In this document: positions 31,277 to 47,659 of the stretch, in pieces
How positions within the stretch are numbered: the stretch's first letter is position 1
Layout: every line of letters begins with the position of its first letter
Assembly (NCBI GenBank): GCA_013002345.1
Contig: JABDKH010000059.1
Location: 1-53,182, forward strand
Direction: 5' to 3'
DNA length: 53,182 nt
Origin: Rhodothermales bacterium
GTDB lineage: Bacteria; Bacteroidota; Rhodothermia; Rhodothermales; JABDKH01
Program-made: the position numbers and the translations under genes
The notes under the pieces: generated by a model
Databases searched by the model: none
Told to the model about the DNA's origin: nothing
Seen by the model: only the letters and a program-made list of their open reading frames with translations

Positions 31277-32053
31277 TTGACGGATTTCACGCTATCAACG
31301 TCTACCGGCCCGGCGGCGCGCGACCCTCGCTGGCCGGTGCTTGTCGTCGTGCCTACCTACAACGAGGCAGCGAATATCGAAGCCGTCGTAGAACGCGTTT
31401 TCGAGGCGGGGGACGATATGGCCATTCTCGTGGTCGATGACTCGTCGCCCGACGGCACGGGCAAGACCGTAGAGGAACTCGCGACCAGGCACGAGGGACG
31501 GGTTCAGCTTCTCGTTCGAGATGGCAAGAAAGGACTCGGGACGGCGTACATCGCCGGGTTTAGATACGCTCTGGAACGCGGTTTTGAATACGTGTGCGAG
31601 ATGGACGCCGACCGCTCGCATGACCCGCACGATCTGCCCAGCCTCGTAGCCCCGGTTCGCGCGGGTGATGCCGACCTCGTGATCGGTTCGCGCTATATCG
31701 ATGGCGTTCGCGTCATGAACTGGCCCCTGCCACGGCTGGTGCTTTCGTACGGAGCCGGAATCTACACGAGGCTCGTAACTCGCATTCCGATTATGGATGT
31801 CACATCGGGCTACAAGTGCTTCCATCGGCGAGTGCTCGAGGCGATCGACCTGGACCGGGTTAATTCGAACGGCTATTCGTTCCAGATCGAAATGAATTAC
31901 AAGGCCTGGCGAATGGGCTTCCGGCTGAAGGAGGTTCCGATCGTCTTCACCGAACGAACGGAAGGCCTGTCGAAGATGAACCGACAGATCGTAAGAGAAG
32001 CGACACTCAAGGTGTGGGAATTGAGACTGCGGTCGATCTTCCGGCGGCTCTGA
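31277..32053 (+). CDS. Polyprenol-phosphate mannosyltransferase-like glycosyltransferase (GT2, Dpm1-like)
   Basis: A 258-residue family-2 glycosyltransferase of the dolichol/polyprenol-phosphate-mannose synthase type. Seen: nucleotide-binding VVVPTYNEAANIEAVVERVF, VDDSSPDGTGKTV, metal-binding CEMDADRSHDPHDLP, and DLVIGSRYIDGV. There is no C-terminal membrane domain, so this is the soluble Dpm1-like form acting on a membrane lipid. The start appears to be a TTG at 31277, 39 bases after a TATCTTCC element at 31238-31245; an internal GTG (PVLVVVPTYNE) is an alternative that loses only a few residues. Role: supplies lipid-linked mannose or a related sugar; the acceptor enzyme is not here. Confidence 0.85.
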   Translation: MTDFTLSTSTGPAARDPRWPVLVVVPTYNEAANIEAVVERVFEAGDDMAILVVDDSSPDGTGKTVEELATRHEGRVQLLVRDGKKGLGTAYIAGFRYALERGFEYVCEMDADRSHDPHDLPSLVAPVRAGDADLVIGSRYIDGVRVMNWPLPRLVLSYGAGIYTRLVTRIPIMDVTSGYKCFHRRVLEAIDLDRVNSNGYSFQIEMNYKAWRMGFRLKEVPIVFTERTEGLSKMNRQIVREATLKVWELRLRSIFRRL

Positions 32054-32180: not shown

Positions 32181-33425
32181 ATGCCCGAATACACGCACCT
32201 CACGCCGCCGACCGAAGGACACCTGATCAAGAAAGACGGCTCCGGCCTTCACGTCCCCACTGACCCGATCATCCCGTTCATTGAAGGCGACGGGACCGGA
32301 CCTGATATCTGGAGAGCGTCACAGCGCGTTCTGGACGCCGCCGTCAAGGAGGCTTACGGTCAAGATCGAAAAATCGTCTGGTTCGAGGTTCTGGCGGGCG
32401 AGAAGGCCTTCAACGAAACGGGTGAGTGGCTTCCGAACGACACCCTCGAAGCGATTCGGCATCACCTGGTAGCGATCAAGGGGCCGCTCACCACGCCTGT
32501 TGGAGGCGGAATCCGATCGCTCAACGTAGCGCTTCGCCAGATACTCGATCTGTTTGCCTGCGTGCGGCCGATCCAGTACTTCACAGGTGTCCCGTCTCCG
32601 GTGAAAAATCCGGAGCTGGTGGACATGATTATTTTCCGGGAGAACTCGGAAGACATCTACGCGGGCATCGAGTATCGAAGCGGCACTGAGCAGAACGCGA
32701 AGCTGATGCGATTCCTGCAGGAGGAACTCGGCGTCACGTCGATCCGCTTCCCGGATTCGAGCGGACTCGGAATTAAGCCGATATCTCGAGAGGGAACTCG
32801 CCGCCTCGTGCGAGCCGCAATCAAGCACGCGCTCGAGTCGAAGGCCAAGTACATCACCCTCGTCCACAAGGGAAACATCATGAAATTCACCGAGGGTGCT
32901 TTTCGTGACTGGGGATATGAGCTCGCGAAAGAGGAGTTCGGCGCGGTCGAATATGAGGGTGGGCCATGGTGCAAGTTTCCGAGCGGCCTCATCATGAACG
33001 ACGTGATCGCAGACGCATTTCTGCAGCAGATACTGACGCGTGCAGGCCAGTACGATGTGATCGCGACCATGAACCTCAACGGGGACTACATATCAGACGC
33101 CCTCGCGGCACAAGTCGGCGGAATCGGAATCGCCCCGGGTGCCAATATCAACTATGAGACGGGACTGGCCATCTTCGAGGCGACGCACGGAACTGCTCCG
33201 AAGTATGCGGATCAGGACAAGGTGAATCCAGGCTCCGTCATTCTCTCTGGGGAGATGATGTTCCGGTACATGGGGTGGAACGAGGCCGCTGACGCCATCG
33301 TTGCCTCGCTGGAGAAAACGATTTCTCAGAAGAAGGTCACCTACGACTTCCACCGTCTGATGGATGGTGCAACCTTGTTGAAGACCAGCGAGTTCGCGAC
33401 GGCGATGATCGAGAATATGGGCTAG
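32181..33425 (+). CDS. icd: NADP-dependent isocitrate dehydrogenase
   Basis: The TCA-cycle enzyme converting isocitrate to 2-oxoglutarate; 414 residues of the E. coli-type. Seen: [12 protein letters not shown], substrate loop [17 protein letters not shown] (its serine equivalent to phosphorylated Ser113), and the cofactor loop [16 protein letters not shown] whose Lys-Tyr pair, with YDFHR later, indicates NADP+ rather than NAD+. AceK kinase/phosphatase is not in the window. A TACCTTCC element lies at 32122-32129, and the sequence just upstream contains a short CAACTCCAC direct repeat. It ends 21 bases before the end of the convergent glycosyltransferase gene. Confidence 0.96.
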
Positions 33426-33445: not shown

Positions 33446-34606
33446 TCACCCGAGGCGAACTGACGCTCCGGCCACACGGTCCAGCATCGCGTCAAATTCG
33501 GACGCACGGGTCTTCCAGTCGAAACGCGCAACCAGGCTCCGCAGCCTGCTGCGGGATAGCATCTGCGTCTCGCCGCTCAGCAGCGACACGAGGGCCTGAT
33601 AAAGCTGCTCTTCCGTCTCGTAGAATATCCGGGCCTCGCCGGCGGGAGGCCGTTCCACGCTGCTCACGATCTCGGGATAGCTAAGGCGATTCGGCACGAG
33701 AGGATGGCACCCGCAGTGTATCGCCTCAACCATCGAGATCCCGAAAAACTCGTGGTCGGACGTCGACACAACAACGTCCGACCGATCCAGCCAGGTACAG
33801 TACTCGTCGAACGTGGGTGCAAATCCGAACTGCAGGATCCGGCTCCCGTACCGATCCCGCGCTTCGTCGAAAACCGTCGGTCGATTTTCGAATTTCTCCC
33901 CGATCAGGATAAGATCGAACTCCAGGCCGGCATCATCGAGTCTGTTCAGCACCCTGAAAAAGGACTCCGGGTTCTTGTCGTACTCCCACCGGTGGTTCCA
34001 GAGAATTGCGGGTGTCGGACCGGATGTCCGAGTGGCAGTCCTCGGAGTCAGCCGCGCGTCGATCGCGGCAGCGTCTATGCCGAGATGCAGCACAGATGAT
34101 TTCGATAGAATCCTGGAGGTCGTGTCACCGTGAGTGTGATCCGGAAAACGCTTGAGAAACTCCGGTAGTGCTCCGAGGAATTCGGACCGGTGAAATTCCG
34201 AATTGAACACCACTTCATCGGCGGTCAGACACGACAGATAATTAATGAACGCGTACGTGTAATCGGGAGGCCCACTGTCGGGCAGGACGTAGGTGAGCTG
34301 ATTCTCGTGCATGTAGAGCACAATGGGAAGTCGCGGAGCTGCGTCGCGTGTCAACGCCACATATGCCGGCACGTTGACCATACTGCTCGCGAACAACAGG
34401 TCCGGCCGATATCCGCTTGACACCGCATCGAGTGTCGCCTGCGCGAGCGAGACAGCGGCTCCTTGCATTCGCCACTTCCAGAACCGATCTGGCAGCGTGA
34501 TCAGGCGGAAGTCGTGCCGGCTGTGGGACGAAAGACCCAGCAGGGCACTCTTATGGGAGCCACCGAACCATGGTTCGAGCGCAAGGACGTTCAGGACGCG
34601 GGACAA
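33446..34606 (-). CDS. DUF3524 glycosyltransferase, homologue of tRNA-queuosine mannosyltransferase (QTMAN/GTDC1)
   Basis: A 386-residue GT4-type glycosyltransferase. The N-terminal DUF3524 domain starts with LALEPWFGGSHKSALLGL, then LFASSMVNVPAYVAL, LYMHENQLTYVLP and INYLSCLTADEVVFNSEFHR. The Rossmann donor domain has WNHRWEYDKNPESFFRVL, VVVSTSDHEFFGISMVEAIH and CGCHPLVPNRLSYPEIV. These blocks match animal GTDC1 (QTMAN) in order and spacing as I remember it. That enzyme adds mannose to queuosine at position 34 of tRNA-Asp. Bacterial members may do the same or use another substrate. It starts at a TTG (34606), three bases after the stop of the small gene before it. Confidence 0.85.
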   Translation of the reverse strand: MSRVLNVLALEPWFGGSHKSALLGLSSHSRHDFRLITLPDRFWKWRMQGAAVSLAQATLDAVSSGYRPDLLFASSMVNVPAYVALTRDAAPRLPIVLYMHENQLTYVLPDSGPPDYTYAFINYLSCLTADEVVFNSEFHRSEFLGALPEFLKRFPDHTHGDTTSRILSKSSVLHLGIDAAAIDARLTPRTATRTSGPTPAILWNHRWEYDKNPESFFRVLNRLDDAGLEFDLILIGEKFENRPTVFDEARDRYGSRILQFGFAPTFDEYCTWLDRSDVVVSTSDHEFFGISMVEAIHCGCHPLVPNRLSYPEIVSSVERPPAGEARIFYETEEQLYQALVSLLSGETQMLSRSRLRSLVARFDWKTRASEFDAMLDRVAGASVRLG

Positions 34607-34609
34607 CGA

Positions 34610-34849
34610 TCAGCCCCGGATCCCCTGCTTTTTCCGGAATTCCTGCTCTTCCTCTTCCGTCGCGGGTCGGACGATCGAGACAGACCTTACCTGCAGATGT
34701 TCTCGCAGTACGGGATCTCGTACCTCGTCGGCCGTCAGAAGCATCTCCTCGCCAGGGTCCACCACAATCTTGCGCGACTTCATTTTGATCTCGACGGAAC
34801 TCAAGTGGGTGTTCTTGATGATCATTCCCCGTCTTTTTCTCGTAACCAT
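34610..34849 (-). CDS. Small conserved-looking protein coupled to the DUF3524 glycosyltransferase
   Basis: About 79 residues with ATG at 34849; a shorter start at 34825 (MIIKNTHLSSVEIKMKSRK) is also possible and longer frames reach 34882. The core alternates strand-like segments (MIIKNTHLSSVEIKMKSRKI, VVDPGEEMLLTADEV) and ends in an acidic helix (EEEEQEFRKKQGIRG). I do not recognise the family. Its stop is three bases before the glycosyltransferase start, so the two are very probably one transcript. Function unknown; a link to the glycosyltransferase is inferred from spacing only. Confidence 0.55.
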   Translation of the reverse strand: MVTRKRRGMIIKNTHLSSVEIKMKSRKIVVDPGEEMLLTADEVRDPVLREHLQVRSVSIVRPATEEEEQEFRKKQGIRG

Positions 34850-34994
34850 CGGATCAGCTCTCGTTGCCGGAATTCGTCTCAATTACAGCATAATACGAAA
34901 GATTACGAGCGGTCCGCGCTGCATGGTCGGCAAGAAGTCTTGAAGATGGCCGTGCAATTGACCTGGCAGCTGCCGTTTCGGATCATGGCTGTCT

Positions 34995-35681
34995 ATGCGA
35001 AACACGCTGGTACGCGCCCGCCGGGGACTAATAAGTCTGCTGTATCCTTCAGTCTGCGAGCACTGCGGTGCACGATCCGAGGATGCGGCGCCCCTCTGCT
35101 GGAGGTGCCTCCGCACCCTGGAACGCGTTCAGGCGTGCGATACTGTAGGGCTGCTGGAGCCCTTTCCCCGCGATGCGGACGGCATTCAGGTACAGTGCCT
35201 GTGGTATTTCGACAAGGACGGCCCGCTCCGGGACGTTGCGCATGCTCTGAAGTACCAGAATCGGCCCTGGTACGGAAGATTTCTTGGCGACGCGCTGGCG
35301 GTCACGCTGGCGCTGGACAGCCCGGCCTCTGTGGTCACCCCCCTTCCTCTGCATCCAATCAAACGCCTCGATCGGGGCTACAACCAGGCCGCCTGGATCG
35401 CCGCGGCCGTATCACAACGGATTTCGATACCCGTACATGAAAACCTGGTACTGAGGACGAGGCCGACGCACACACAGACGACTTTAAATCGTGACGACCG
35501 ATGGCAGAACGTGCAAGATGCGTTCCGGGCTGCGTCAGCGCCCGGTCCGGGGCATTCCCACGCCGTGCTGGTAGACGACATCGTCACGACCGGGGCCACG
35601 GCCCTTTCGGCAGCCGTTGCTCTCCGTGCAGTAGGCTTCGAGCACGTCACGATTGCGGCGGTGGGCCTAGCGCGCGATTAA
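34995..35681 (+). CDS. ComF family protein (phosphoribosyltransferase-like)
   Basis: A 228-residue ComF/GntX homologue. The N-terminal zinc-ribbon-like Cys pairs are present (CEHCG and LCWRC), and the phosphoribosyltransferase motif AVLVDDIVTTGATALSAAVA carries the two acidic residues that bind PRPP and metal. Also VVTPLPLHPIKRLDRGYNQA, a ComF signature. In naturally competent bacteria ComF supports DNA uptake; its reaction is unproven. No other competence genes are in the window. Its 3' end overlaps the convergent ABC-ATPase gene by 15 bases. Confidence 0.9.
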   Translation: MRNTLVRARRGLISLLYPSVCEHCGARSEDAAPLCWRCLRTLERVQACDTVGLLEPFPRDADGIQVQCLWYFDKDGPLRDVAHALKYQNRPWYGRFLGDALAVTLALDSPASVVTPLPLHPIKRLDRGYNQAAWIAAAVSQRISIPVHENLVLRTRPTHTQTTLNRDDRWQNVQDAFRAASAPGPGHSHAVLVDDIVTTGATALSAAVALRAVGFEHVTIAAVGLARD

Positions 35682-39411: not shown

Positions 39412-39942
39412 CTACCGCCTGATCTCCGCAAGCATATCGCTGTAGGATCGATCGACCAGTTGATCATCCTCAACGCCGAGCAGAGACATCGTTCGCCGGC
39501 ACTGCTGCTCGAGCACTGCCTCTACGTCCGGCCCGGGGTCCCCTATCGCCTCGATCTCGAGGAAGTGTCCCAGGCCCTCGACGCTGTCCACATGCACCTT
39601 AACATTTGAGAGGAAGTAGATGTGACGCGCCTTCTTGACCACCACTTCGACGCGGAGTGCCTCCACAAGCAGGGCGCGAAGACCTTCGGGATCCGGAGGG
39701 TGATAGAGCCGAACGAACGACGGCCGGGGTCCCGCCTCATCCCCGCGCCTGTAGTAGATCAGCGTGTTCTCGATGTTGCCCTCGCGCAGTTTCAGCCTGC
39801 CTTCGCGAACCCTGAAATACGTGTCGGTTTGATGATCAAGCCCGACGTACCGGGCACCCGCCGACTTCAGCCGATCGCAGACGCCCTCCGGATCATCGCA
39901 GTGAGCCTTTATCTCGACGTTGACTTTGGATTCGGCACTCAT
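39412..39942 (-). CDS. CYTH-domain protein, class IV adenylate cyclase-like (CyaB)
   Basis: A 176-residue CYTH protein. The N-terminal strand is VNVEIKAHC: the ExExK motif is present as N-V-E-I-K, with Asn at the first position as in some CyaB proteins. The hallmark HQTDTYFRVREGRLKLREG follows, then VRLYHPPDPEG and FLEIEAIGDP (the second acidic pair for metal). The fold is a triphosphate tunnel; activities in the family include adenylate cyclase, thiamine-triphosphatase and triphosphatases, so the reaction is not decided. Its ATG overlaps the stop of the sulfotransferase-GNAT gene by four bases (ATGA), meaning translational coupling. Confidence 0.87.
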   Translation of the reverse strand: MSAESKVNVEIKAHCDDPEGVCDRLKSAGARYVGLDHQTDTYFRVREGRLKLREGNIENTLIYYRRGDEAGPRPSFVRLYHPPDPEGLRALLVEALRVEVVVKKARHIYFLSNVKVHVDSVEGLGHFLEIEAIGDPGPDVEAVLEQQCRRTMSLLGVEDDQLVDRSYSDMLAEIRR

Positions 39943-41144
39943 CGATCCGCGAGTCCATGCGACCCGGAAAGCAACAGCCTCATGGCGGTGGCGGTGCTCG
40001 GGCAGAGTGTGGTGAATTCTCTCGACTCGATCACCGGACCGGAGATCGACTCCCTGCTCACGGCCTCGAAACCGAAGCGCTTGAAATAGTCCGACGCATC
40101 TGTTGTCAAGAGGACCACTTCCGAGATCCCTAAAGATGCCGCGCTCTCGACGGCATCCCGAACGAGTCGCGCCCCTACTCCGTCCGACTGCTCGGATGAC
40201 GCGACAACGACAGACCGCAGCAGGGCCTGCGACCCGTGGATTTCAATAGCCGCCGCACCAACAAGCACGTTGCCGCGCTTCGCGACAAGCAAAGTGTCAA
40301 AGACATCTTCGATGCCGTCGACCGGTAGCGAGGCCGCAGACAGCAGTTCATTCACACGCGCGACGTCGGAGCGCTGCGCCTTTTCAATTGTAACCGGACG
40401 GACGCTCGTGTGCGCGGACGGCGTCGCACGGATCGCCAGCTCGGACAGGCGTGCATAGTACGGCTCACACTCAACCAGCAGCGGACCGAGCTTGGGCGGC
40501 AGCGGAGTCGTTTTCGGCCGATACGGCGCGAATCCCGTCGTGGTGTGAACATCATGGTACCAGATGTCCGACCACACGCCGTCCTCCGGTCGCGGACCAC
40601 TCGGCCAGTGCAACATCGCTTTCACGAACGGAATGCTTATTCGCTCGCAGACCTGCCGGAGAACGGACTCCGGATCCGCCAGCAGCTCGCGCGCGTCAAT
40701 GACGACCACATTCTGTCCGATGGAGGCGAGATGTTCGACTAACCGGACCTGAACGGGAAAGCCTGTGTCATCAATTCTCGGATCCGGCAGTTTGCGTGCA
40801 AGGGACGGAAGTACCTGAGCGGGCGCTCTTGTAAGAATGACGTTGGCCGTTCGCTCCAGAAAGTCCCAACTGACGTCTACGAGGTGGTGCGCCATGTTCT
40901 TGACGAAGATGGTTCCGTCGGCCGTGTCACCCAGAATGACGTCAGCGATCACACGTTCGCCGTCGTTGTCCTGGCTCGCGATGATCCGCTCCCGTCCCGG
41001 GTGGTCCACGCCAGAGACCCGCAAGTAGTGAGCGTAAAGCGGCTCGTCGATGACACGTGTACCCGGGCGTTGCGCGAACGAATACATCAATGCCGTCGAA
41101 ACATTGCGCGGCCCCGACCACAGACAAATGCGTTTCGTATCCAT
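39939..41144 (-). CDS. Sulfotransferase-like / GNAT acetyltransferase (ArsN2-like) fusion
   Basis: A 401-residue two-domain protein. Residues about 1-250 are a sulfotransferase-family domain starting MDTKRICLWSGPRNVSTALM, where the SGPRNVST loop is the PAPS 5'-phosphosulfate-binding loop, with VILTRAPAQVLPSLARKL further on. Residues about 255-401 (from VTIEKAQRSDVARVNELL) form a GNAT domain of the ArsN2 type, with LLRSVVVASSEQSDGVGARL (acetyl-CoA loop QSDGVGARL) and LLTTDASDYFKRFGFEAV. The frame is intact throughout. The ATG at 41144 is preferred over an upstream frame to 41261, which is unrelated. The GNAT end overlaps the CYTH gene start. Substrates unknown. Confidence 0.85.
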   Translation of the reverse strand: MDTKRICLWSGPRNVSTALMYSFAQRPGTRVIDEPLYAHYLRVSGVDHPGRERIIASQDNDGERVIADVILGDTADGTIFVKNMAHHLVDVSWDFLERTANVILTRAPAQVLPSLARKLPDPRIDDTGFPVQVRLVEHLASIGQNVVVIDARELLADPESVLRQVCERISIPFVKAMLHWPSGPRPEDGVWSDIWYHDVHTTTGFAPYRPKTTPLPPKLGPLLVECEPYYARLSELAIRATPSAHTSVRPVTIEKAQRSDVARVNELLSAASLPVDGIEDVFDTLLVAKRGNVLVGAAAIEIHGSQALLRSVVVASSEQSDGVGARLVRDAVESAASLGISEVVLLTTDASDYFKRFGFEAVSRESISGPVIESREFTTLCPSTATAMRLLLSGSHGLADR

Positions 41145-41732
41145 TGATTCTTGAGCCTGACGATAACGTCTTTCATCACGGGCCGTCGATCCACAGGTCT
41201 GGCGAGCGCATTCGACCTGCCGGATTCGACCGCAGCGCGACGTCTGCGCTGCACGTCGCAAATGTACACCGGGTGATGGACACTGTCATCTGCGGCCGGC
41301 GTTGCTTGCTGTCATTCGTCGGTGAAGCGTCTGAGTTCAGCATGTCCGTGACCGCAAACGAATGAGATGTCAGAAGACGGCGACGGCATGGCTGGGGCGG
41401 TGTCTTGCGAGGTCACTTTCTTGATTCCGGGAGACGTGTACCCTGACGCCAGATCAGTCGACGTTCCTCGTGCGAGAAGCCACACGATGCCGCTTCGGCG
41501 CAAGGCACATACCACGCATCAGCCCGATCACCCTTCGACATGCACTGTAAGGCCGCGTCTACCCATGATTCGTTCGCGTTGGGGCTCATGTAATTACCCC
41601 TGCATCAGGCCGAGTGGAGGCCCGCTGGTCTAAAACTCAGTTCACAACCGCCGATGTCCAACATAAGGGGGTCCGATTTTCGGAAGCCGATTACGGGCGG
41701 CGTCCTCCGGGTTCAATAATGAGGTGACGGCC
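41145..41732. other. Non-coding stretch of about 590 bases
   Basis: No convincing gene. A frame at 41367-41633 (MSEDGDGMAGAVSCEVTF and onward) lacks coding features and is ignored. The region must carry the promoters of the sulfotransferase-GNAT gene and of the protease gene; I could not place them. A GGGGCTCATGTAATTACCCC semi-palindrome at about 41581-41600 is the only symmetric element noticed. Confidence 0.45.
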
Positions 41733-45192: not shown

Positions 45193-46125
45193 TCAAACCT
45201 CAGCTTGTTTCGCGTGCAATAAGAATAGGGCAAACCAGCTACGCTTATCCGTCCAGACCTGCTCGACCCAGAAGTCAGCACCGCGCGCCAGCTCGCTGAA
45301 TTGATCGATACCGTACTTGTAGGAGTTCTCCGTGTGAACGTATTCGCCACGCTCAAAACGAAAAGCCCGGTCCGCAACTCGGACGGTCTGCGCTTTCCGG
45401 CTGACCAGATGCATCTCAATCCGTCCCTCGTCCTCATCGTAGATGGCCCGGTGTGCGAACCCGTCAAGATCGAAGTCCGCTGCAAGCTCGCGATTGATTC
45501 GCGCCAGTAGATTAAGATTGAACTCCGCAGTGACTCCCGACGCGTCGTCGTACGCATTGAGAAGTACCTCGGGATCCTTTTTCAAATCCACTCCGATAAT
45601 CGCTCCCCCATCATCGCCGACAATGGTGTGCATTCGCTTCAGGAATCGTGTGGCGTTCGCCGGGCGAAAGTTACCGATTGTTGAGCCCGGGAAATAGACG
45701 ACCCTCCGGCCATCGAATTCGGGAAGGTCGACCGGGGTGGTGTAGTCCGCGTGAACCGGGATCACATGAAGATCCGGATAGTCGGCCGTCAACCCATCCG
45801 CCACCTGGTTGAGATGAACGCCCGAGATATCGATGGGCACGTACGTCGAACCTGGCGGGATGTGCTCCAGAATCATGCGAGTCTTCGTGCTCGACCCGCT
45901 TCCATACTCGATGATCGCGAGCTCCTCACCGAGCGATGCCCCGATCGCATCGATGTTCTCGCGCATGATCTGCAGCTCTGTCCGCGTCGGGTAGTACTCT
46001 TCGAGTTCAGTGATCTTATCGAAGAGTGCGGATCCGGTCGCGTCGTAGAAATACTTGGACGGCAAGCTCTTGGGCGAGCCGGACAAACCGGTCAGCACGT
46101 CGTTCAGAAAACTGGCTTCCATCAC
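45193..46125 (-). CDS. egtD: L-histidine N-alpha-methyltransferase EgtD
   Basis: A 310-residue SAM-dependent methyltransferase that makes hercynine (trimethylhistidine) from histidine, the first step of ergothioneine synthesis. Seen: SKYFYDATGSALFDKITELEE, IIEYGSGSSTKTRMILEHI (SAM loop), YVPIDISGVHLNQVAD, YFPGSTIGNFRPA, and the C-terminal FRFERGEYVHTENSYKY (histidine-binding Glu/Ser region). Start GTG 46125 or ATG 46122. Second gene in egtB-egtD-M28; a 75-base gap separates it from egtB. Confidence 0.95.
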   Translation of the reverse strand: MMEASFLNDVLTGLSGSPKSLPSKYFYDATGSALFDKITELEEYYPTRTELQIMRENIDAIGASLGEELAIIEYGSGSSTKTRMILEHIPPGSTYVPIDISGVHLNQVADGLTADYPDLHVIPVHADYTTPVDLPEFDGRRVVYFPGSTIGNFRPANATRFLKRMHTIVGDDGGAIIGVDLKKDPEVLLNAYDDASGVTAEFNLNLLARINRELAADFDLDGFAHRAIYDEDEGRIEMHLVSRKAQTVRVADRAFRFERGEYVHTENSYKYGIDQFSELARGADFWVEQVWTDKRSWFALFLLHAKQAEV

Positions 46126-46200
46126 AATCTTGTCCGGGTTTGGACCACGGGTGCGAGCACAAGTCGAAGCACACGATAGACAGGGACGATGTCGCGCTGA

Positions 46201-47493
46201 TCAGTTGCGTGCGAGCCGTATTCCAGTGAACTGCCAACGCGCAGATGGATGGAAGAAGTTGCGATAGGTCCGGCGTATGTGCGTCTCTGACGTGGCCACC
46301 GAGCCACCGCGCAACACGAACTGGTTGCACATGAACTTGCCGTTGTACTCGCCCAGCGCACCGGGCTCCGGCTTGTAGCGAGGATAGGGCGAATACTGGC
46401 TGCGCGTCCACTCCCATACGTCACCAAACATCTGTTCCACCGCGCCGCTTCTGCCCTGCGCCCGGATCGGATGAAAGTTCTTCCGCTCCACGAAATTCCC
46501 CTCGATGACTACGTCTCGACTCGCCACTTCCCACTCGAACTCCGTCATCAAGCGAGCATCCGCCCAGCGCGCGTACGCATCCGCCTCGAAGTAGCTCACA
46601 TGACAAACGGGTTCGTCGAGGTTGACGGGTCTGAATCCTCGCAGGGTGAAATTCCACCACTGCCCGTCGCTGCTTTCCCAATAGCCGGGCGCCTTCCAGC
46701 CGCTCGTTTCGACCGCAGTCCACCCCTCCGACAACCACAGTTCGGTGCGATCATACCCACCCGCCTCCATGAACTCGATGTACTCCCGGTTCGTGACCGG
46801 TCGCGATGCAAACGCAAACGGTTCGACGAAAACCTGATGGACCGGACCCTCGTTGTCGTAGAAGAAGCCGTCGCCCTGATAACCTATCTCAACAAGCCCT
46901 CCCTCGTTTTCGATCCACTCCGCAGGCGGCGGAAGTGCCGTGTGGCCAATCTGCGCTCCCTCCGCGTAGACCGGTCGTAGCGGGTTTTCGGACAAGACAT
47001 GCTTGATGTCCGTCAGGATGAGCTCCTGATGCTGCTGCTCATGATTCAAACCAATCTCAATCCGGCGGCGGGCCTCCGTCGATTCGGCGTCGCTCGTGGT
47101 TTCAAAGAGCTGCGCCATCTGCTGATCTACGAACTTCCGATATTGATACACTTCTTCGACCGTCGGACGGGATAACAATCCGCGCTTCGGGCGGCAATGC
47201 CGGTCACCCGCCTGGACGTAGTAGGAATTGAACAGATAGGCAAAATCTGGATTGAACGGCCGGTATCCCTCTGCAAACGGAGTCAGGACAAACGTCTCGA
47301 AAAACCACGTCGTGTGAGCGAGATGCCACTTTGTGGGGCTGACGTCCTGCATCGACTGTATGACGTAATCCTCCGTCACGAGCGGTGCGCACAGCGCGCG
47401 TGTCATGGCACGAATTTGCCGATAGCGTTCTGCGAGAGAGGCAATGGAGCGGTCAGCCGCTGCAGCGCCGTTCTTGACTGTTTGAACCTGCAT
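46201..47493 (-). CDS. egtB: Ergothioneine sulfoxide synthase EgtB
   Basis: A 430-residue iron enzyme. DinB-like N-terminal domain with WHLAHTTWFFET and NHEQQHQELILTDIKH (histidine ligands of the iron site), joined to an FGE-sulfatase domain (EIGYQGDGFFYDNEGP, SRPVTNREYIEFMEAGGYDR, RLMTEFEWEVASR, and final RGGSVATSETHIRRTYRNFF). It couples hercynine to a thiol using O2. There is no egtA or egtC here, so the sulfur donor is more likely cysteine than gamma-glutamylcysteine; no egtE was seen either. ATG at 47493; the frame extends to 47646 but only with unrelated sequence. First gene of the operon. Confidence 0.94.
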   Translation of the reverse strand: MQVQTVKNGAAAADRSIASLAERYRQIRAMTRALCAPLVTEDYVIQSMQDVSPTKWHLAHTTWFFETFVLTPFAEGYRPFNPDFAYLFNSYYVQAGDRHCRPKRGLLSRPTVEEVYQYRKFVDQQMAQLFETTSDAESTEARRRIEIGLNHEQQHQELILTDIKHVLSENPLRPVYAEGAQIGHTALPPPAEWIENEGGLVEIGYQGDGFFYDNEGPVHQVFVEPFAFASRPVTNREYIEFMEAGGYDRTELWLSEGWTAVETSGWKAPGYWESSDGQWWNFTLRGFRPVNLDEPVCHVSYFEADAYARWADARLMTEFEWEVASRDVVIEGNFVERKNFHPIRAQGRSGAVEQMFGDVWEWTRSQYSPYPRYKPEPGALGEYNGKFMCNQFVLRGGSVATSETHIRRTYRNFFHPSARWQFTGIRLARN

Positions 47494-47659
47494 TGGGACT
47501 CGTTTGGTACGTCTATTCGGGGTTACTACGGTGGGTTGCTCTCGGCGTGAATACGTTTCATAAATAAGATGCCCCCCTGCCGGAATCAAGCGTGGCCCGC
47601 ATCGCGAACCGAAGCAGAGGCTCGGCGTACGCATCCGCCCACACAAAGGTGCCCCCTAC

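Follow-up and report, generated by a model that had tools for sequence, protein, structure and literature searches.

The analysed window, a 53,182-nucleotide contig stretch from a bacterium of the order Rhodothermales (phylum Bacteroidota, class Rhodothermia), carries two adjacent genes on its minus strand. The downstream gene (33446-34606, minus strand) begins with a TTG codon at 34606 and encodes a 386-residue homologue of the animal enzyme QTMAN, a predicted tRNA-queuosine glycosyltransferase of GT4 type with a predicted GT-B fold. The upstream gene (34610-34849, minus strand) encodes a 79-residue protein of no known family. A convergent housekeeping gene for NADP-dependent isocitrate dehydrogenase (idh; 32181-33425, plus strand; NF005425, 690 bits) and a divergent gene for a ComF-like protein (34995-35681, plus strand; TIGR00201, 76 bits, below the cut-off) flank the pair. 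On the far side of idh lies a gene for a GT2 enzyme of the polyprenol-phosphate hexose or mannose synthase type (31277-32053, plus strand), which hints at nucleotide-sugar use; the window also holds a GlmM/PMM-family mutase, and the two are suggestive, but only suggestive, of a GDP-mannose donor. Elsewhere in the window there are adjacent EgtD- and EgtB-like genes of ergothioneine biosynthesis (45193-47646, minus strand), judged from their translations and not by profile, and a single open reading frame (39939-41261, minus strand) in which a Sulfotransfer_5 domain is fused to an ArsN2-like acetyltransferase.

The first-pass annotation had recognised five DUF3524 blocks (EPWFGGSHK, LYMHENQL, SCLTADEVVFNS, WNHRWEYDKNPESFF and EFFGISMVEAIHCGC) in the order found in animal GTDC1/QTMAN, and the translation of 33446-34606 contains all five with that order kept. 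The profile search that it proposed establishes the protein as a member of the QTMAN family. In particular, residues 6-177 (34076-34591, minus strand), the N-terminal acceptor-side domain, match positions 1-168 of the 168-position Pfam profile PF12038 (QTMAN_N) with 186.2 bits and E=5.3e-55, against a curated cut-off of 25 bits; a match to PF00534 (Glycos_transf_1, 35 bits) follows on its C-terminal side. In an alignment of homologues, S17, W45, R46, H100-E101-N102-Q103 and D156 are near-invariant in the N-terminal domain, and W203-N204, R206-W207, D210, K211 and the pair formed by E/D286 and E294 are fully or almost fully invariant. These last positions belong to the donor-domain signatures at residues 203-294 (33725-34000, minus strand), W203-N-x-R206-W-x-Y-D210-K211 and E/D286-FFG-(4 residues)-E294, where the column counts across 57 homologues are 57/57 for R206, 53/57 for K211, 57/57 for E or D at 286, and 53/57 for E294. 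The second signature is an EX7E-type motif, its putative role being assigned by analogy with GT4 enzymes, and R206, K211 and E294 would presumably handle the donor, as established GT4 knowledge leads us to assume.

The AlphaFold2 model of the protein, built with 57 family sequences as input, has a mean pLDDT of 92.6 and a pTM of 0.91, and predicts a two-domain GT-B fold whose top matches among solved structures are GT4-type enzymes (glycogen synthase, MshA and BshA); together with the PF00534 match and the column counts, it points to a C-terminal GT4 donor domain. Neither sequence nor fold searches found a QTMAN protein among the solved structures searched. PimA, which uses GDP-mannose, ranks 11th among the structural matches. 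PimA and other retaining GT4 glycosyltransferases share with the QTMAN homologue the GT-B fold, the EX7E-type motif and the donor-site Arg and Lys; they differ from it in the N-terminal acceptor domain and in the acceptor, with 11-17% identity in structural alignment.

The sugar and the acceptor hydroxyl are not readable from the sequence, and a Q34 glycosyltransferase that uses a sugar such as glucose or galactose, or the other hydroxyl, yielding a hexosyl-queuosine unlike animal manQ, is an unlikely outcome that nevertheless draws on several observations: the donor-domain match is only generic GT4, and among the best fold matches the donor may be an ADP-, a UDP- or a GDP-sugar. Against it, the donor-site blocks resemble those of the animal enzyme as judged with one human sequence, a resemblance that is a lead only. 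Both halves of that human sequence match a bacterial profile (135 and 178 bits; likewise a lead only). Overall, the animal enzyme (GTDC1), a tRNA-queuosine alpha-mannosyltransferase with PF12038, and the bacterial protein both have a whole QTMAN_N domain followed by a GT4 donor domain. In contrast to the animal enzyme, the bacterial protein, a predicted glycosyltransferase of about 386 residues, is without the long inter-domain insert of that human sequence (a lead only) and is paired with a small protein in Rhodothermales. A second animal enzyme, the queuosine galactosyltransferase QTGAL (B3GNTL1), likewise glycosylates Q34 in tRNA and belongs to a different glycosyltransferase family from that of QTMAN. 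It acts on the homoallylic hydroxyl and adds beta-galactose (PMC12518689).

A quite improbable alternative is that the protein is a GT4 enzyme for a lipid, a small molecule or a surface polysaccharide, with tRNA not involved. Such activities are common among bacterial GT4 enzymes, PimA, MshA and BshA are among the best matches of known structure, and no queuosine gene was recognised next to the QTMAN gene in any neighbourhood examined. However, the NCBIfam models of polysaccharide, lipid and thiol GT4 families all fall far below their cut-offs for this protein, and the gene lies outside polysaccharide clusters: the neighbours of QTMAN vary by clade, and the recognisable ones are housekeeping genes (mutL-, ispG- and mutY-like genes, idh). 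The grouping with lipid or capsule glycosyltransferases that would have refuted the first-pass proposal is thus not what the QTMAN_N match and the distant named families indicate. Moreover, the gene is single-copy, universal in the class and retained together with tgt, as described below.

The three-base gap (34607-34609) to the upstream gene, given there as 79 residues long, had been taken in the first-pass annotation as a sign of a functional unit. The coordinates agree with the gap, and the ATG start at 34849, which gives 79 residues, is backed by the N-termini of 21 homologues; the longest open reading frame, from a TTG at 34882, would give 90 residues. A profile search places a homologue of the small gene directly upstream of QTMAN and in the same direction at every Rhodothermales locus examined, which together span 10 of the 12 families sampled in the order, with a gap of -4 to 138 bases where it was measured. 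In many relatives the ComF-like gene, too, is found upstream of the two genes. At the QTMAN loci examined outside the order, no homologue of the small gene was found. The pairing therefore holds within the order and not as a general rule: the small protein is at most an order-specific partner of QTMAN. Going by gene arrangement, the two genes form a probable two-gene operon; their co-expression is likely, and one may reasonably guess that they share a function. The small protein starts with a basic stretch of RKRKG type, its homologues have R, Q and P residues that do not vary, and its tail is variable and in many cases acidic. It matched no family in Pfam or PHROG, and no viral relatives of it were found. 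Its predicted model (pLDDT 83) consists of four strands, helices and a fifth strand, for which the fold search returned no significant match.

In the source genome, the QTMAN homologue is chromosomal and present as a single copy. All 31 genomes sampled from the order (the source genome included) have it, as do all 43 others of the class, compared to 4 of the 222 remaining sampled genomes of the phylum; none was found in 14 named control genomes. A scan of the genome collection identified at least 586 relatives; represented among the 80 best are Bacteroidota, Chloroflexota, desulfuromonads, Marinimicrobia, KSB1, Planctomycetota, Verrucomicrobiota and others. Carriers in culture include Geomonas anaerohicana, Geomonas silvestris, Geothermobacter hydrogeniphilus and Flavilitoribacter nigricans, whereas laboratory E. 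coli is without QTMAN. The bacterial QTMAN family is large, and a Pfam model of it already exists. No match came from the plasmids searched, and those from phages and viral contigs were partial and confined to the donor domain. Within the class, the gene tree broadly follows taxonomy. The source genome's sequence sits on an unusually long branch (0.85) compared to others of the order, and the human sequence (a lead only) forms a very long one. Some Balneolaceae carry two divergent copies, one of the class type and a second grouping with Saprospiraceae-type sequences (second copies within L003-L022, set against L126, L128, L131 and L132). The two copies possibly serve two products or two tRNA targets, and different products would fit the reading with another sugar or the other hydroxyl. 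The second, Saprospiraceae-like copy often adjoins a gene resembling the endonuclease/exonuclease/phosphatase family.

A search for queuosine genes, also proposed in the first-pass annotation, found tgt, queA and queG in the source genome, queG being above its curated cut-off; the expected Q34 acceptor can therefore be made, a further likeness to the animal system, and the genome is not one that lacks queuosine biosynthesis and salvage, the finding that would have refuted the proposal. Within the phylum, co-occurrence of QTMAN with queA is uninformative because queA is near-universal there (295 of 296 genomes). Outside the phylum, and apart from the Chloroflexota sample, 45 of 50 QTMAN carriers have queA. 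The five that lack it are all MAGs; four of them have tgt, with a TGT of the ordinary preQ1 type, so their missing queA may reflect incomplete assembly. The fifth (G329) yielded neither queA nor tgt. With that single exception, and across few independent lineages, QTMAN occurs where queuosine in tRNA is possible, and nearly all genomes that have it also carry TGT, the queuosine-inserting enzyme.

The Chloroflexota gave the informative test, since queuosine genes vary there and a negative association with queA could have refuted the link. In this sample, 27 of 251 genomes carry QTMAN, nine of them with queA and 18 without, and the association between QTMAN and queA is negative. In contrast, tgt is present in 27 of the 27 carriers. 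Among genomes that lack queA, tgt is found in 18/18 with QTMAN versus 19/48 tested without it (Fisher p=3e-6, with no correction for ancestry, a value that overstates independence because the 18 carriers fall into about two to three lineages of the gene tree). As tgt accompanies QTMAN whether or not queA is present, QTMAN appears to be kept where queuosine can be in tRNA, made or salvaged. The first-pass annotation had left a glycosylated tRNA and a glycosylated lipid side by side as products, and this co-retention with TGT favours the tRNA.

Queuine-salvaging TGTs typically have GG[LS][AS]G at the base-binding pocket (PMC10723273). TGTs aligned from 14 of the 18 queA-lacking carriers have an IGG-SLG pocket, compared to the IGG[LS][AS]VGE of preQ1-type TGTs; they look queuine-inserting by sequence, with the proviso that GGSLG only approximates the consensus. 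These pockets bear on a further possibility, that the enzyme glycosylates another TGT-derived 7-deazaguanine in tRNA (for example, preQ1 or epoxyqueuosine) and not queuosine. QTMAN does track tgt across lineages and not queA, as that possibility would have it; however, preQ1 is without the diol needed for manQ-like acceptance of a sugar, the source genome has queA and queG, and the queA-lacking Chloroflexota carriers have pockets of queuine type, not preQ1 type, all of which makes it very improbable.

Genes for queuosine salvage (PF10343) and for a QPTR-type transporter (PF02592) were considered as a general explanation of the queA-lacking carriers and rejected, being present in only a minority of them. 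One such genome (G473) has, in a row, a PF10343 salvage protein, a queuine-type TGT and a putative S component of an ECF transporter, the last below the cut-off for the CD3073 family; judged from these genes, the segment (L184:632-3758) is an apparent queuosine-salvage operon. Further, in many queA-lacking QTMAN Chloroflexota there is a second TGT paralogue, divergent and with GGWPLD at the pocket, whose score as a TGT only narrowly exceeds the Tgt equivalog cut-off (L186:2137-3312 and L187:2104-3228, in G543 and G463); the same kind of second match occurs in G397, G431, G439, G511, G551, G575, G583, G481, G489 and G445.

Another bacterial enzyme, the glutamyl-queuosine tRNA-Asp synthetase GluQRS (YadB), would decorate the same Q34 cyclopentenediol; it is an aminoacyl-tRNA synthetase paralogue from an unrelated family, whereas QTMAN is a glycosyltransferase. 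The GluQRS model TIGR03838 (cut-off 276.7 bits) is exceeded in 8 of 296 genomes of the phylum, seven of them in the order and all seven with QTMAN. In the source genome, the best match to this model (E=1.3e-58) is below the cut-off. Mutual exclusion of the two enzymes had been expected and is rejected, as they coexist in 7 of the 31 genomes of the order. Since GluQRS acts on the same diol of tRNA-Asp, its coexistence with QTMAN leaves tRNA-Asp uncertain as the QTMAN target. Mosquito manQ is reported on tRNA-Tyr and not on tRNA-Asp (PMC11705514), so the choice of tRNA may differ within the QTMAN family. Among modifications of this kind in the literature searched, gluQ is the only one described from bacteria and is known only there; manQ and galQ have been described in animals (PMC12710937; PMC8654956). 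The accessible parts of the open QTMAN literature report no bacterial enzyme, an earlier mention in subscription literature being possible, and the open literature searched did not yield PF12038 or DUF3524 by name.

Overall, the full-length QTMAN_N domain, the class-wide conservation, the queuosine genes and the co-retention with TGT support a Q34 glycosyltransferase, which lends weight to the tRNA-glycosylation function suggested at the outset. We consider it likely that the gene product is a bacterial tRNA-queuosine glycosyltransferase, and most likely a mannosyltransferase. Q34 is the most likely target and mannose is probably the sugar; we infer these, together with the linkage, the tRNA and the activity itself, from sequence comparison and genome content. 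According to the proposed mechanism, the N-terminal domain would hold a Q34 tRNA (that for Asp, Asn, His or Tyr) by its anticodon loop, and the C-terminal domain would bind a nucleotide sugar, probably GDP-mannose. By a retaining mechanism, the enzyme would then attach the sugar to one hydroxyl of the queuosine cyclopentenediol. The product, manQ or a closely related nucleoside, would tune the decoding of NAU and NAC codons. The 79-residue protein, found only in the order and probably co-expressed, may serve QTMAN as an accessory or tRNA-binding subunit.

More tentatively, and with a chance that we put somewhat short of even, glycosylated queuosine could be widespread in bacterial tRNA and have escaped notice because the enzyme is absent from the usual model species. 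It would be universal in the class, scattered in Chloroflexota, desulfuromonads, Marinimicrobia, KSB1 and others, kept even where queuine is obtained by salvage alone, and, in Rhodothermales, made with the help of the new small protein; the animal enzyme would have branched off late within an old bacterial family. The protein family is already known, and glycosylation of Q34 would, if true, be a new function for bacteria. The question of a bacterial hexosyl-queuosine is directly testable by mass spectrometry of tRNA. If the homologues do act on Q34, then sugar-decorated wobble bases would be a broad bacterial trait, cultured bacteria would provide simple systems in which to ask how manQ affects decoding, and one could study where the animal enzyme came from.
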